Made by a program: the position numbers and the translations under genes
The notes under the pieces: model-generated
Databases searched by the model: none
Seen by the model: the letters and a program-made list of their open reading frames with translations, nothing else
What the model was told of the DNA's origin: nothing
Shown here: positions 7,544 through 51,444 of the stretch, piece after piece
Layout: each line of letters starts with the position of its first letter
Numbering within the stretch: position 1 is the first letter of the stretch
Source of the DNA: an uncultured Veillonellaceae bacterium
Lineage (GTDB): Bacteria > Bacillota > Negativicutes > Veillonellales > Dialisteraceae
Reading direction: 5' to 3'
DNA length: 64,000 bases
Assembly (NCBI GenBank): GCA_927353735.1
Contig: CAKMIA010000001.1
Span: forward strand, 62,001 to 126,000

Positions 7544-8662
7544 ATGAAACCGCACAGAAAATTTTTTATTCTTTCTGCTTCCATTGGAAGCGGACATTCG
7601 CAGGCGGCGCGGGCAGTTGCGGAGACAATCAGGATGAAGCATCCGGATGACAGTGCACGGGTGCTGGATTTTCTTTCCGGAGATTCTTTTTCACTGGATC
7701 AGCTGATAAAAAAAAGTTACCTGAAAATGCTGGATGTATTTCCCATTATTTACAACCGGTTGTACAGCAATTCACAGAATCGGTATCTGGGAAATGGCGT
7801 GCAGAGTCTTCTTTCCTGGAGTTTTCGCCGGCGGATGAAGCGGTTGAATGCAGCCTTGAAGCCGGATGCATTGATTTTTACCCATCCGTTTCCCGCCTGT
7901 GCGGCCAATCTTTTGAAAAAGGAAGGTGCCCTTTCTATCCCTCTTTTAGGGGTCATTACGGATTTTGACATTCATCAGCTCTGGATTTATAAACATCTGG
8001 ACGGCTATTGTGTTCCTACGGAGGAACTGGCGGAAAAGCTGGCAGCACATGGAGTACCCCGGTCTATTATTCATACAACTGGGATCCCCGTAAGACGCTC
8101 TTTTTATGAGGAACGGAAAAAGAAACCGGCCCGTCAGAAGGGAACGGTCCTTATCATGGGGGGCGGACTGGGGCTCGGATATATTACAGATACCCTGAAA
8201 CGTCTTGATCGGGTGAAGGAAATTCAAAATTTCATTGTGATCACCGGGCAGAATATTTCTGCTTATGAAGAAGTTGCTTCTTTAAGGGATAAACTGCTGC
8301 ATCCGGTGGAACTGCACAGCTACACGAATAAGGTAGCCCATTTTATGGGGATCAGCGATCTCATTGTGACCAAACCGGGGGCGCTTACCTGTACGGAGGC
8401 ATTGACTATGGGTCTTCCCATGGTTCTGGTCAATGCTCTTCCCGGACAGGAACAGGCCAATGCAGCTCATTTGCAGGAAAAAGGCTGTGCTATATGGGTA
8501 AAGCGGGGACAACTGGCGGCTACTGTAAGAGAGATTTTGCTCAACGATGAATGGCGGAATCGGATGGTTGCCCGATGCGGGCCGGTCATGGAAGACAGCA
8601 GCGGAAAAATTGTGGATATTTTATATAATATGCTGGAAATGGAAAAGAAGCAGCCTGAATAA
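7544..8662 (+). CDS. MGDG synthase/UgtP-like glycosyltransferase (GT28 family)
   Basis: A 372-residue protein with the MGDG-synthase-type N-terminal domain (SASIGSGHSQAARAVAETI, the glycine-rich acceptor loop) and a GT28-type C-terminal half with VTKPGALTCTEALTMGLPMV and PGQEQANAAHL, which bind the nucleotide sugar. Relatives such as UgtP and plant MGD1 move a hexose from a UDP-sugar to diacylglycerol at the inner face of the membrane. The substrate here is inferred, and other glycolipid or cell-wall acceptors remain possible. It is a single-gene unit between the HU terminator and a hairpin before the potassium genes. Confidence 0.82.
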   Translation: MKPHRKFFILSASIGSGHSQAARAVAETIRMKHPDDSARVLDFLSGDSFSLDQLIKKSYLKMLDVFPIIYNRLYSNSQNRYLGNGVQSLLSWSFRRRMKRLNAALKPDALIFTHPFPACAANLLKKEGALSIPLLGVITDFDIHQLWIYKHLDGYCVPTEELAEKLAAHGVPRSIIHTTGIPVRRSFYEERKKKPARQKGTVLIMGGGLGLGYITDTLKRLDRVKEIQNFIVITGQNISAYEEVASLRDKLLHPVELHSYTNKVAHFMGISDLIVTKPGALTCTEALTMGLPMVLVNALPGQEQANAAHLQEKGCAIWVKRGQLAATVREILLNDEWRNRMVARCGPVMEDSSGKIVDILYNMLEMEKKQPE

Positions 8663-8674
8663 TTATTGTGAGAT

Positions 8675-8701
8675 GAGTCGGGATTTTGAGCCCGGCTCTT
8701 T
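8675..8701 (+). terminator. Weak intrinsic terminator/hairpin after the glycosyltransferase
   Basis: An 8-bp stem (GAGTCGGG / CCCGGCTC, one G-T pair) is followed by only three T residues. It may attenuate rather than fully stop transcription. Confidence 0.5.
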
Positions 8702-8718
8702 GCATGTATGGAGAATTC

Positions 8719-8747
8719 TGGCAAAAACAGAATCAGGTGAATATAAT
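8719..8747 (+). promoter_or_regulatory. Probable promoter for ktrB-ktrA
   Basis: TATAAT at 8742-8747 lies 17 bases after a weak -35 (TGGCAA, 8719-8724), about 60 bases before the ktrB start codon. Confidence 0.5.
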
Positions 8748-8806
8748 AAAAGACATACTGATTCAAGCTGTCTGAATGGTAAGCATAAAAGTCTGAAGGA
8801 GCATGT

Positions 8807-10150
8807 ATGATACAGTCTTTACTTTTTGTTTTCGGCCGTTTTCAGAGGGGCATGCTGATTTTATGCGGATTTGCTGCCTTTATGCTGCTTGGCGCATTGC
8901 TTCTGATGCTTCCGGCTGCGCAGACGGGAACTAGGGAGATTGGTTTTATTGATGCTCTTTTTACATCGGTGAGCGCAGTCAGTGTTACCGGAATGAGCCT
9001 GATTAATATGAAAGAGGATCTGACTCTGTTCGGTCAGATTTTGATGTTGTTTATGATTCAGGTCGGCGGCCTAGGGATTATGACGATCATGGCGATTATG
9101 GGGATTTCAGCGGGGCGGAGGATCCGGCTGCAGGAAAGGCTTCTGATCCGTGATTCATTTAATCTGCAGACGCCGTCCGGTATGGTTCTTCTGGTTCGGA
9201 AGATCATTGCCATGACATTTTTTATAGAGTTTATTTCCGGGACACTGTTGTCTATTCATTTCTGGCAGGAAATGGGCTTTATGGGAATTTATTATGGATA
9301 CTGGCATGCCGTATCAGCTTTTTGCAACTGTGGGCTTGACCTTTTCGGGAACGGGGGATTTTCTCCTTTTGCAAGGGATCCTTTTGTATGCGCAGTGGTC
9401 ATTGTGACAATGGTTCTTGGTGGGATCGGTTTTGTCGTCATTGATGATGTGCTCAAAAAAAGATCGTGGGCCAGACTGTCCCTGAACAGTAAAATGGTGC
9501 TTTCGGCAGAACTGTTTTTCACCGTATTCGGGGCAATTGTTTTTTTTATCATGGACAGAAACAATCCACGGACAATGGGAGATATGAATCTCTTTATGGA
9601 AATACTGAATTCTCTGTTCATGTCCATTTCTTCCCGCCTTGCCGGCTTTACTACATTTGATATTGTGGATGTCAGCATCAGTACGCAGCTCATCGTTATG
9701 CTTCTGATGTTTACCGGATCGGCACCGGTATCTACCGGCGGCGGGGTACGAACAACAACCGTGTTTGTCATGTTTCTGTCCGTTTTATCATGGATTCGCG
9801 GGAAACAGGATGTCGTTATCTTTCATAAACGAATTGATGAGCGGTCCATATCAAAGGCGTTTCATATTTTCACGCTGTCTTTTGCACTGACATTCCTGAC
9901 TGTATTTTTGCTGCTCCTGTTCGATACGCGGGGATTTGGGCTCGAGGAAGTATTGTTTGAAGGGGTTTCTGCTTTCAGTACGGTAGGATTCAGTGTGGGA
10001 CTGACGGATAAATGGAATGATTTTTGCAAAATCATTTTAATCTTTGCCATGTTTATCGGGAGGATCGGGGTTATGACGCTGGTCCTGGCTTTTGCAGAAC
10101 GCCATCAGGGACAGATTCGGTACCCGACAGAAAATGTGGTTATAGGCTGA
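8807..10150 (+). CDS. ktrB: KtrB/TrkH-family potassium transport protein (membrane subunit)
   Basis: A 447-residue membrane protein of the SKT superfamily. Each of the four M1-P-M2 repeats should carry a filter glycine. Visible filter-like stretches are SVSAVSVTGMSL (repeat 1), HAVSAFCNCGLDL (repeat 2), SRLAGFTTFDI (repeat 3) and GVSAFSTVGFSVGL (repeat 4). It forms the ion path of a K+ (Na+-coupled) uptake system and pairs with the RCK subunit encoded 10 bases downstream. Its size and partner favour KtrB over TrkH. A GAAGGAG ribosome site lies before the ATG. Confidence 0.93.
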   Translation: MIQSLLFVFGRFQRGMLILCGFAAFMLLGALLLMLPAAQTGTREIGFIDALFTSVSAVSVTGMSLINMKEDLTLFGQILMLFMIQVGGLGIMTIMAIMGISAGRRIRLQERLLIRDSFNLQTPSGMVLLVRKIIAMTFFIEFISGTLLSIHFWQEMGFMGIYYGYWHAVSAFCNCGLDLFGNGGFSPFARDPFVCAVVIVTMVLGGIGFVVIDDVLKKRSWARLSLNSKMVLSAELFFTVFGAIVFFIMDRNNPRTMGDMNLFMEILNSLFMSISSRLAGFTTFDIVDVSISTQLIVMLLMFTGSAPVSTGGGVRTTTVFVMFLSVLSWIRGKQDVVIFHKRIDERSISKAFHIFTLSFALTFLTVFLLLLFDTRGFGLEEVLFEGVSAFSTVGFSVGLTDKWNDFCKIILIFAMFIGRIGVMTLVLAFAERHQGQIRYPTENVVIG

Positions 10151-44768: not shown

Positions 44769-45500
44769 ATGAAAGTATATATCCGGATAAAACACACAGG
44801 AGAATTTTTCAATCAGAATTGTTTTGATGTGTATACAGGATGTCTGTCTCTTGGTATACCGGTTGTTCCTTATAAGGCGGTTTATTCCATCGAGGATAAT
44901 GAACCGGAGGATCCGATCGTAGGAACGCTGGATGATGTGGAAGTGGCCATGGACAAGATGGGAATTCATCTGCTTCCTATGGATTATCCAGAGGAATTAC
45001 GGCCTTTCCTGGGACGGAAAATCTGGAAGTCCACTTTGTTCAGCATTACCAGCAATGCTGACAGCTGGCATATTTTTGTGAAGCCCATATGGGATGTCAA
45101 ACGTTTTTCCGGCACGGTGCTGGATAAATCTGAGGATCTGATCAAGCTGGGCGGCGGCCTGGAGGATATTCCGGTCTGGTGCAGTGAAAAGGTACATTTC
45201 CTTTCTGAATGGCGGCTCTGGGTATTGAATGGAGAGATCATAGGATTGAATCCCTATGCAGGCCGGTGGGATGTATTTCCTGATGCGGACAGATTGAAGC
45301 AGGCCGTAGCTGCTTTTCATAAGGCACCCTGTGGATATGCTTTGGATTTTGGGGTGACGGATGACGGACGGACTCTTCTTGTGGAGGCCAGTGATGGATA
45401 TGTTCTTCGCAGTTTCGGACTGGCGCCGGAAAAATATGTGCGGCTTCTGACTGCCCGGTGGCAGGAACTGACAAAGGGAATCGAACAGACGAGGGGATGA
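44769..45500 (+). CDS. ATP-grasp protein of the R2K type, function unknown
   Basis: A 243-residue protein whose C-terminal two thirds read as a compact ATP-grasp: HIFVKPIWDVKRFSGTV (the lysine strand), SEWRLWVLNGEIIGLNPY (first Arg) and GYALDFGVTDDGRTLLVEAS (metal-binding end, with DFGV and E), then DGYVLRSFGL (second Arg). These match the R2K clade (two Arg, one Lys) found mainly in phages, toxins and peptide-modifying systems. It is probably an amide- or peptide-ligating enzyme; substrates are unknown. It stands alone between two terminators, with its own promoter. Confidence 0.8.
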   Translation: MKVYIRIKHTGEFFNQNCFDVYTGCLSLGIPVVPYKAVYSIEDNEPEDPIVGTLDDVEVAMDKMGIHLLPMDYPEELRPFLGRKIWKSTLFSITSNADSWHIFVKPIWDVKRFSGTVLDKSEDLIKLGGGLEDIPVWCSEKVHFLSEWRLWVLNGEIIGLNPYAGRWDVFPDADRLKQAVAAFHKAPCGYALDFGVTDDGRTLLVEASDGYVLRSFGLAPEKYVRLLTARWQELTKGIEQTRG

Positions 45501-48666: not shown

Positions 48667-48741
48667 GGGCCTATAGCTCAGTGGCAGAGCCGCCGGCTCA
48701 TAACCGGTTGGTCCCAGGTTCGAACCCTGGTGGGCCCACCA
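48667..48741 (+). tRNA. tRNA with CAU anticodon (elongator Met or lysidine-type Ile2)
   Basis: A complete cloverleaf: acceptor GGGCCTA / TGGGCCC, D arm with TAGCTCAGTGG, anticodon stem CCGGC/ACCGG with loop CTCATAA (anticodon CAU), T arm CCAGG-TTCGAAC-CCTGG and an encoded CCA. The G1-C72 pair excludes initiator tRNA. Elongator Met and Ile2 (modified by TilS) cannot be separated firmly by eye; the GGGCCTATAGCTCAG start resembles isoleucine tRNAs. Confidence 0.93.
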
Positions 48742-48777: not shown

Positions 48778-48900
48778 GTGTGGACTGAATAAATGGGCTG
48801 ATTGTAAAACAAGGCAATATCAACATAACATTGGGGATGTTAAGGCGTGATTGATTGAATTATATGAATTTTGGTAAACTACGGATGATCTGAAGAAATT

Positions 48901-48950
48901 AAAAACAAAAGATAGGCAGAGGAAAATATTCTGCCTATCTTTTGTTTTTT
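48901..48950. terminator. Bidirectional terminator at the end of the AcrVA2-like gene
   Basis: A perfect 19-bp inverted repeat (bases 48901-48919 with 48931-48949) with A-rich and T-rich outer arms works on both strands. On the minus strand it begins at the stop codon of the gene at 48949-49995. Confidence 0.9.
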
Positions 48951-49995
48951 AGAATTTTGAATCAGCTATTTCTTGGCCTGCAGCATCGACAAGGGCGGTA
49001 TGGGTCCATTTTAAGCGAATCAGTTTTCGGCCTGGTCCATAGCGATAGGACTGCCAGTAGGCACGCCGGATGCGTATGTCTGAAGAATGACTGTCCGGAT
49101 GTATGAATCCTTTGGCTTCAAAACGGTTGAGCTGCTTCAACCTGCATGCAATATTGGCACCGACATTAAATACAGTGATTTCTCTTGGGATGTCGTGAAT
49201 TTTAGATGTCTGCTTGGATTTCCAGCCAGGATCAGTTTGTATATCTGCATTATCGGCGGAAAGATAGACAAGCATAGTGGCAAGAAATGCAGTGAAAGGT
49301 CCCATGGTATTTCCATATTCTTCAAATGCGTCTTTATCCATGGACTCAAACTTGTCCATAATACTGACGTCCTGAAGAAGCATTTCCTCCAGGCTCTTAT
49401 AATCTATCGCTTTCGGACGCCGGGAACCATTGCAGATACACTGTTCAATTGTTTTTTCTTCACCGGGAATGTAGGGAAGAAACGGTGTACAGAGCGGAAG
49501 TCCATTTTTGGTAATGGGGGTGAAGCGGATTTCCATGATATTCCGGTCTGGATACTCGATATGGTTTTCATTCCTGTAAACAAAAAAACCGTCTATATTG
49601 CCGGGCATTTTAATTCCGGGCCGGATATAAATAACTTTTTTCGGGAGATGAATGGAAGAAATATCAATATTCAATATTTTACGGCAGGAAACTTCAAAAA
49701 GCTCTTTTGTTAATTCTGCAGAAAAATCATAAATGGATTTATCAAGTCTCCAGCTGGCGGCAGCGGCAATAACAGAAGCATCCAGTGCATCGGTACGGGA
49801 TATTTCTCTTTTGTATGATTTTTCCACGGCTGCATGGGCAACAGGAAGTGGCGCATATACCATGGAATGATCCCACATATCCGTAAAGTCTGCGGCGTTC
49901 GCAATTTCTTCCACATAGGAAATGGCTCCGGGATATTTTCGTTTGATTCTGTCCAGTGCAGCCATTGCTGCACATTTTTTAATATTAAAATTCAT
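48949..49995 (-). CDS. AcrVA2-like protein (anti-CRISPR family homologue)
   Basis: A 348-residue minus-strand protein. From memory of the Moraxella AcrVA2 sequence (322 residues), the C-terminus is strikingly similar: RIRRAYWQSYRYGPGRKLIR then LKW here (about 308-330), against an H-I-R-R-x-H-W-x-x-Y-W-x-G-x-G pattern ending in R-V-R-W there. A middle stretch, LPKKVIYIRPG...IDGFFVYR (about 117-140), also matches in layout. AcrVA2 lowers Cas12a production; whether this homologue does so is unknown. It has its own GGAGG site 8 bases before ATG and a terminator, and lies between two tRNA genes with no neighbour of related function. No alignment was run. Confidence 0.7.
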   Translation of the reverse strand: MNFNIKKCAAMAALDRIKRKYPGAISYVEEIANAADFTDMWDHSMVYAPLPVAHAAVEKSYKREISRTDALDASVIAAAASWRLDKSIYDFSAELTKELFEVSCRKILNIDISSIHLPKKVIYIRPGIKMPGNIDGFFVYRNENHIEYPDRNIMEIRFTPITKNGLPLCTPFLPYIPGEEKTIEQCICNGSRRPKAIDYKSLEEMLLQDVSIMDKFESMDKDAFEEYGNTMGPFTAFLATMLVYLSADNADIQTDPGWKSKQTSKIHDIPREITVFNVGANIACRLKQLNRFEAKGFIHPDSHSSDIRIRRAYWQSYRYGPGRKLIRLKWTHTALVDAAGQEIADSKF

Positions 49996-50245
49996 GCAAA
50001 AAACCTCCGTTACGCATTATAACAAAGAAGTGACGATTATGTATAATGTCGTAGTTTATTCTTTTTTTAGGCTAAGCCTGTATTTGAATTTTCTGAATGA
50101 CAGAACGCATTGAATGGAAATGATCTATCATGACTTTGGCTAAAAACGAGTAGCATAGAAAGCCTCGATACAAAAAAACGGCAGTTGGGGTAGAAATTTG
50201 AGTAGCAAAATCAGGTTATCAGAGGAAAATAAGGAAAAATAAAAA
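49996..50245. other. Gene-free stretch between the AcrVA2-like gene and tRNA-Ser
   Basis: About 250 AT-rich bases. On the minus strand it holds a likely -10 (TATAAT, reverse complement of 50008-50013) for the AcrVA2-like gene, and a small AGGCT-A-AGCCT repeat near 50070. I see no gene, tRNA fragment or direct repeat that would mark an integration site. Confidence 0.6.
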
Positions 50246-50289: not shown

Positions 50290-50378
50290 TGGCGGAGACG
50301 GTGGGATTCGAACCCACGGTACCTCGCGGTACAACTGATTTCGAGTCAGCCTCGTTATGACCACTTCGATACGTCTCC
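50290..50378 (-). tRNA. tRNA-Ser (anticodon CGA)
   Basis: Read on the minus strand: acceptor GGAGACG / CGTCTCC, anticodon loop CTCGAAA (CGA, reading UCG), the long variable arm expected of tRNA-Ser, T arm GTGGG-TTCGAAT-CCCAC, and encoded CCA. Its 5' base is directly next to the tadA stop codon, so it is probably cut out of the tadA mRNA. Confidence 0.95.
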
Positions 50379-50888: not shown

Positions 50889-50991
50889 TTGAATCAGCAG
50901 AAACATATGATTGTGGTGGATGGAAATGAAATAAATAGGTATAATAAAAATACATCTTTTATTTTATGCAAATATGATAGGAGGGATTTTC

Positions 50992-51444
50992 ATGGCCGAT
51001 ACGGAAATGAAACCAAATGTAAAGGCAGAAAAGTTTGACGCTTACTTGAAAGCCAATCAGCTGAAGTTCTTTTTGCGCGATCCTGTACCGAATGATCCCA
51101 ATGGGACCGTTGTATATAAGTCCAATATTGAAGCAGAAGGCCAGAAGCTGCCTGTGGGAATTATTGTTGATAACACGATTTATACGATTATTCGTGTACA
51201 GATCGGAACCGGATTGATTAAGGACAGCAACAGAGACCGGTTTAATGCGTTTCTGAACGAACTGAATCGCGGATATAAAGTGTTTAAATATGTAGCAGCA
51301 GATGACGGAACGGTCTATCTGGATTCCTGCATTCCCAGCAGCAATGAAATGTTTGATCCTCAGCTGGTGCGTGTCATTCTGGATGTCATCGTTAATCATC
51401 TGCAGCAGGAATACAAGACGATCATGAAGAAGGTCTGGGACTGA
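50992..51444 (+). CDS. YbjN-domain protein
   Basis: A 150-residue cytoplasmic protein of the YbjN-like fold (related to type III secretion chaperones). It has an N-terminal helix (VKAEKFDAYLKANQLKFF), a central sheet with LPVGIIVDNTIYTIIRVQIG, and the typical NRDRFNAFLNELNRGYKVFKY and DGTVYLDSCIP segments. YbjN proteins are linked to stress responses, but no biochemical function is settled. ATG 50992 follows a consensus AGGAGGG. It stands alone, with a terminator before the dcw cluster. Confidence 0.82.
   Translation: MADTEMKPNVKAEKFDAYLKANQLKFFLRDPVPNDPNGTVVYKSNIEAEGQKLPVGIIVDNTIYTIIRVQIGTGLIKDSNRDRFNAFLNELNRGYKVFKYVAADDGTVYLDSCIPSSNEMFDPQLVRVILDVIVNHLQQEYKTIMKKVWD

Follow-up and report, generated by a model that had tools for sequence, protein, structure and literature searches.

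Why does the chromosome of an uncultured, gut-type member of the Negativicutes carry, between two tRNA genes, a gene resembling that of the anti-CRISPR protein AcrVA2, and what might the gene do there? AcrVA2 recognizes the N-terminus (LSKT) of nascent Cas12a, resulting in degradation of the mRNA, and has been called the first documented prokaryotic case in which a nascent peptide is read and its message destroyed; the Cas12a peptide in the AcrVA2 crystal (618-634) differs from the functional, N-terminal one (PMC13131331). An earlier note on the window (the whole 64,000-nucleotide stretch of DNA analysed here) had suggested that the gene could be either a domesticated anti-CRISPR or a member of a broader family that originally served in translation-linked control of mRNA.

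The gene and its chromosomal site

The features of the locus, by position in the window, are the following.

48667..48741, plus strand: tRNA-Met, left flank, conserved in genomes G009 and G010
48781..50184: species-specific stretch of ~1.4 kb that holds the gene (from alignment to G010 locus L019)
48901..48949: terminator at the 3' end of the gene, a 20-bp perfect hairpin with T-runs on both strands (inverted repeat I1)
48949..49995, minus strand: gene of the AcrVA2/FinQ family (PHROG 6160), a divergent member of 348 aa (from the open reading frame and its translation)
49006..49080, minus strand: C-terminal signature block, residues 306-330 (DIRIRRAYWQSYRYGPGRKLIRLKW), with conservation counted against 81 members and against 36 motif-unbiased members
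50004..50008, minus strand: ribosome-binding site GGAGG, 8 nt before the ATG (from the sequence)
50016..50045, minus strand: promoter-like TATACA-18-TATAAT with a TG extension (extended -10; from its match to consensus)
50290..50378, minus strand: tRNA-Ser(CGA), right flank, conserved in G009 and G010

The open reading frame is real: it lies on the minus strand with exactly the boundaries given in the earlier note and runs for 348 codons without a stop or a frameshift. The longest open frame in the insert has 355 codons, compared with at most 183 in 500 shuffles. The codon score is 0.19 in the frame of the gene, within the 0.18-0.32 of its neighbours, and negative in every other frame; codon use is like that of the host. 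The ribosome site and terminator that had been ascribed to the gene are also present.

The gene is flanked by bacA, a gene for an R2K ATP-grasp protein, dnaG, and rpoD, and then by tadA, mraZ, and mraW. Its site is chromosomal, on a housekeeping contig of 549 kb and not on a plasmid. Among the neighbours tested there are no phage or mobile-element genes and no defence island. Thus, with tRNA-Met and tRNA-Ser as flanks and housekeeping genes as neighbours, the initial description of a chromosomal site beside tRNA genes and free of phage genes holds. The R2K-clade ATP-grasp protein (PF18299/PF14243), which is peptide-ligase-like, is encoded at 44769-45500, between bacA and dnaG. A conserved protein of 156 aa with no Pfam match is encoded at 50974-51444, adjoining tadA and mraZ, in a stretch common to G009 and G010.

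In the sister species (G010), the order rpoD, tRNA-Met, tRNA-Ser, tadA is the same, but the window gene is missing. Homology between the window and this genome ends at 48780 and restarts at 50185, and where the window has 1.4 kb, G010 has 0.15 kb of unrelated DNA; in G009 the two tRNA flanks lie apart. The family is absent from all 379 other genomes of the class (1 positive in 380). Given the empty site in the sister species, this absence elsewhere in the class, and the phage or plasmid home of its relatives, the gene was most likely acquired horizontally by this species, from mobile DNA. Repeated loss in the other genomes of the class is the alternative, and acquisition is the simplest reading. 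No convincing target-site duplication or att repeats were found at the insert. At its ends lies a 20-bp imperfect inverted repeat (48765-48784/50165-50184, 75%); it overlaps the terminator of tRNA-Met, and chance probably accounts for it.

Homology to AcrVA2 and FinQ

The window protein is without doubt a homologue of AcrVA2, if a remote one. The profile phrog_6160 matches it along its full length, residues 15-336 (E 5.9e-13, ~50 bits), and PHROG 6160 represents the AcrVA2 family, since AcrVA2 of Moraxella phage Mcat1 (AKI26968.1) scores 358 bits on it. On a leave-one-out family profile the window protein scores 111 bits, compared with 9.2 for the best of 500 shuffles and -1.8 for the reversed sequence. 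On such profiles, the members of the AcrVA2 clade score 147-197 bits, and FinQ scores 203 bits on a profile that excludes both FinQ and the window protein. The narrow profile of the AcrVA2 clade gives the window protein just 14.6 bits. Alignment (hhalign) of the window protein to a profile of three AcrVA2-clade proteins covers 226 columns, residues 80-338, with E 3.4e-5 and a probability of 72%. A four-member profile has AcrVA2 (7ci1) as its sole PDB match (E 2.7e-25), with the RR-x-x-W...G...W block aligned, and a 37-member family profile matches 7ci1 with E 8.8e-59. The homology proposed in the earlier note is thus borne out by a significant profile match that extends beyond 200 residues and in which the C-terminal Arg/Trp cluster is aligned.

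By pairwise similarity, Moraxella AcrVA2 lies below BLAST/phmmer detection for the window protein; the link requires profiles or structure. Identity of the window protein across the family reaches at most 26%, and in the structural alignment with AcrVA2 it is ~15%. When the single sequence of the window protein is used in tblastn against phages and plasmids, the only matches are Lactobacillus phage JCL1032 and a Thioflavicoccus plasmid, and a related-locus search of genomes and viruses with the single protein found no relatives. A phmmer match of the single sequence in PDB and a match to a Pfam IS110 transposase (E 0.028, below cut-off) were rejected as chance. None of Pfam, NCBIfam, or PADLOC has such a family.

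The predicted structure points to the same protein. The AlphaFold model of the window protein, built with 45 aligned sequences, has a pLDDT of 83.7 and a pTM of 0.84. In a Foldseek search of PDB, its sole significant matches are the AcrVA2 structures 7ci1 and 7ci2 (E ~1e-11, prob 1.00, TM 0.56-0.66), the next having E 1.1; an earlier model with 19 sequences likewise matched these two alone. The overall rmsd is large (5.5-6.7 Å), indicating that the model does not reproduce the orientation of the domains. When viral models are searched, the matches are uncharacterised phage proteins, including those of Erwinia jumbo phages. Taken together, the window protein shares with AcrVA2 the fold, the domain order, the W82/Y89/P118/G136 blocks, the C-terminal RR-x-x-W...G...W, and the PHROG.

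A second characterised protein, the fertility inhibitor FinQ of IncI1 plasmids, belongs to the same family. Searching (tblastn) with the Thioflavicoccus member reaches 538 plasmids, mostly enterobacterial conjugative ones, and matches FinQ with E ~1e-8. FinQ scores 164 bits on PHROG 6160 (E 9.3e-48) and aligns to the AcrVA2 clade over 299 columns (hhalign, 99.7%, E 8e-27). Its C-terminal end, KRPHIRRGHWHTYWTG, resembles that of AcrVA2 in 7ci1 (KRPHIRRGHWHGYWQG). On an Escherichia coli IncI1 plasmid (NZ_CP145638.1, L043:2746-3834), the open frame of FinQ reaches upstream of the annotated start, giving 363 rather than 259 aa, and this extra part adds to the AcrVA2 alignment. FinQ is found on conjugative plasmids beside trbA and its known target is the F tra operon, whereas the window gene is chromosomal.

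FinQ lowers target transcripts. It has been reported to end F tra transcription prematurely at multiple sites in a Rho-independent manner, an effect described as transcription termination and not as mRNA decay (PMC8744291). Since both of the characterised members, AcrVA2 and FinQ, lower target mRNA, the family may act as a general silencer of rival genes, and a single mechanism could be common to the two proteins; fertility inhibition and anti-CRISPR activity would then be one trick. FinQ also gives the family a second member suited to tests of the mechanism, one that works in E. coli K-12, where the F plasmid is the classical model. Among the PMC papers searched, none names both AcrVA2 and FinQ; on that scope, priority cannot be claimed.

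Other relatives are borne by phages. The nearest detectable one, ORF32 of the Lactobacillus delbrueckii phage JCL1032, is 25-26% identical over its whole length and sits in a temperate phage between the lysis genes and attP/integrase. The 'AcrVA2' of Shewanella phage vB_SbaS_Y11 is phage-borne and belongs to the family, as checked with the profile; the paper on this phage names a type I-E system, rather than Cas12a, in a Shewanella (PMC10846135). Huge phages are reported to carry proteins that cluster with AcrVA2 (PMC7162821).

The C-terminal signature and its lost histidines

The earlier note had drawn attention to a C-terminal block, RIRRxYW...GPG...RLKW, as matching AcrVA2. The block is indeed present, with Arg310, Arg311, Trp314, Gly320, and Trp330 retained. 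However, the hallmark of the family at this site, as defined from the present alignment rather than from any official family criterion, is P-H-x-R-R-[AG]-H-W-H, and here the window protein reads R-x-R-R-x-Y-W-Q. The three histidines of the hallmark are replaced by Arg308, Tyr313, and Gln315. Among 36 members that had not been selected by the motif, these histidines are present in 36, 36, and 35, respectively, and Arg310 and Gly320 in all 36; 45 further members, which had been found by means of the motif, do not enter this count. All three histidines are kept in FinQ (KRPHIRRGHWHTYW) and in the Shewanella phage protein, while in JCL1032 ORF32 the third is also missing (Gln) but the first two are kept, unlike in the window protein. 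The conservation of the block suggests that it is an effector or contact site.

Changes are not confined to the block: other conserved Trp and Cys residues are altered as well (W44S, W276F, W318R, and C246S in P0001 numbering), while the scaffold residues W82, Y89, P118, G136, R310, R311, W314, G320, and W330 are retained. In a tree, the window protein lies on a very long branch (2.76 changes per site), and its place is unsure; the nearest members are those of Lactobacillus phage JCL1032 and gut phages, away from Moraxella and Shewanella. Judged by its signature, the window protein is an outlier of the family, either re-worked or failing, and the lost histidines and the long branch are as compatible with decay or a new function as with a retained one.

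In the first case the gene would be a remnant, decaying or neutral, of a lost prophage or plasmid, still open and no longer functional. The changed residues and long branch, together with the single occurrence in 380 genomes of the class and the lack of mobile-element genes beside the gene, would be expected of such a remnant. Nevertheless, 348 codons remain intact with promoter-like sequence, a ribosome site, a terminator, and host-like codon use; the scaffold residues are retained; and the fold is predicted with confidence. A remnant is considered unlikely. Whatever its state, the window gene is a natural variant in which the three most conserved residues are changed, and it points at residues to study.

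Target and possible role

No cas12a was found near the gene, in its own genome (94% complete), or in the 61 genomes searched in the order, with a cas12a model that as a positive control placed 2 of 398 genomes of the phylum over the cut-off. The remark in the earlier note that no Cas12a lies nearby can thus be extended to the genome and the order. Consequently, Cas12a is not the target at home, and anti-Cas12a action in this host can be excluded to the extent that the assembly is complete (94%). Nor does the gene share the situation of either characterised relative: it lies on no recognisable mobile element in a Cas12a-bearing lineage, as AcrVA2 proper does; its protein does not cluster with the Moraxella AcrVA2 clade (tree; 14.6 bits); and it is chromosomal rather than on a conjugative plasmid, the location of FinQ.

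Members of the family are carried by phages and plasmids that belong to Pseudomonadota, Spirochaetota (Leptospira), Deinococcota, and Bacillota; others come from genomes labelled Nitrospirota, Planctomycetota, Acidobacteriota, Myxococcota, Synergistota, Bacteroidota, and Actinomycetota, among others. Of 398 Bacillota genomes, six give a match to the family and three a match to cas12a (one weak), and no genome has both; in these small numbers there is no sign that the family tracks Cas12a. The upstream and downstream ORFs of family members form no shared family that would constitute a common partner. Of the two readings in the earlier note, that of a wider family with translation-linked mRNA control is favoured, because family members are spread over many phyla and sit on many phages and plasmids, their distribution does not follow that of Cas12a, and FinQ is one of them; a domesticated anti-CRISPR acting on Cas12a is not supported.

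The protein might instead be a true anti-CRISPR directed, by the same mRNA-directed route, against Cas9 or another effector, either the host's own nuclease or that of an invader. The family contains a proven anti-CRISPR, and the genome has a type II cas9 locus (L052, G000:C13:1-14000), assigned from reading its ORFs: a Cas9-like protein of 1354 aa, cas1, cas2, csn2-like ORFs, and an array. In addition, a conference abstract states that an N-terminal tag can direct AcrVA2 to other nucleases (PMC12908700). However, a chromosomal gene that shut off the CRISPR system of its own host would be counter-selected, the window gene is now on no recognisable mobile element, the cas locus is on a different contig, and nothing ties the specificity of the window protein to Cas9. 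This explanation is regarded as quite improbable. The repeats of the host array can be read through as IYHYQELHHSQT.

The results above show that the window gene belongs to the AcrVA2/FinQ family and stands alone on the chromosome, where it was very probably acquired horizontally. The explanation we prefer, which we would give about an even chance of being correct, is that it acts as a nascent-peptide-directed silencer of a target other than Cas12a. By analogy with AcrVA2, the protein would bind a short peptide of a single, specific protein that is emerging from the ribosome, and this binding would lower the corresponding mRNA. In nature the family would target genes that belong to rival mobile elements or to host defence, as AcrVA2 does with cas12a and FinQ with F tra; in this host, the protein would most likely control a gene brought in by a phage or plasmid, or one of the host's own. 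With three near-invariant histidines gone from the C-terminal block and its Arg/Trp scaffold intact, the step that this block performs (contact with RNA or the ribosome, or cleavage) is probably altered; the window copy could bring about silencing in another way, bind its target peptide and do no more, or be on the way to losing function.

A narrower form of this explanation makes the gene host-protective: it would serve in defence or fertility inhibition by silencing a gene that is essential to phages or conjugative elements entering the cell, in the way that FinQ acts on F. FinQ, which acts against a rival plasmid (PMC8744291), and the stand-alone chromosomal location are consistent with such a role, as is another family member that lies directly behind brxL on a BREX plasmid. 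On the other hand, there is no defence island around the window gene, no family member tested has a PADLOC match, and the gene occurs in a single genome. This version seems somewhat unlikely. The BREX case is that of Thioflavicoccus plasmid pTHIMO01 (L006:5956-6999), where the family gene ends a BREX run (pglZ, brxL, a small ORF, and the gene, with a 4-nt overlap); its position hints at a connection with defence on this conjugative plasmid.

More broadly and more tentatively than the preferred explanation, AcrVA2 and FinQ may be specialised members of one large family, spanning more than 10 phyla, of nascent-peptide-directed mRNA silencers that serve in conflicts between mobile elements and hosts. 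The 'Rho-independent termination' described for FinQ in 1989 would then be translation-coupled loss of mRNA, and the window gene would be a member that the chromosome has adopted, its C-terminal effector site re-worked and aimed at a target other than Cas12a.

Family genes can also occur in more than one copy. Two different AcrVA2-family genes lie within a ~3-kb stretch of a single viral contig (L026:5968-6951 and 8087-9034), and a Bacillota genome (G440; L129, L133, L136) has two family copies, one of them interrupted.
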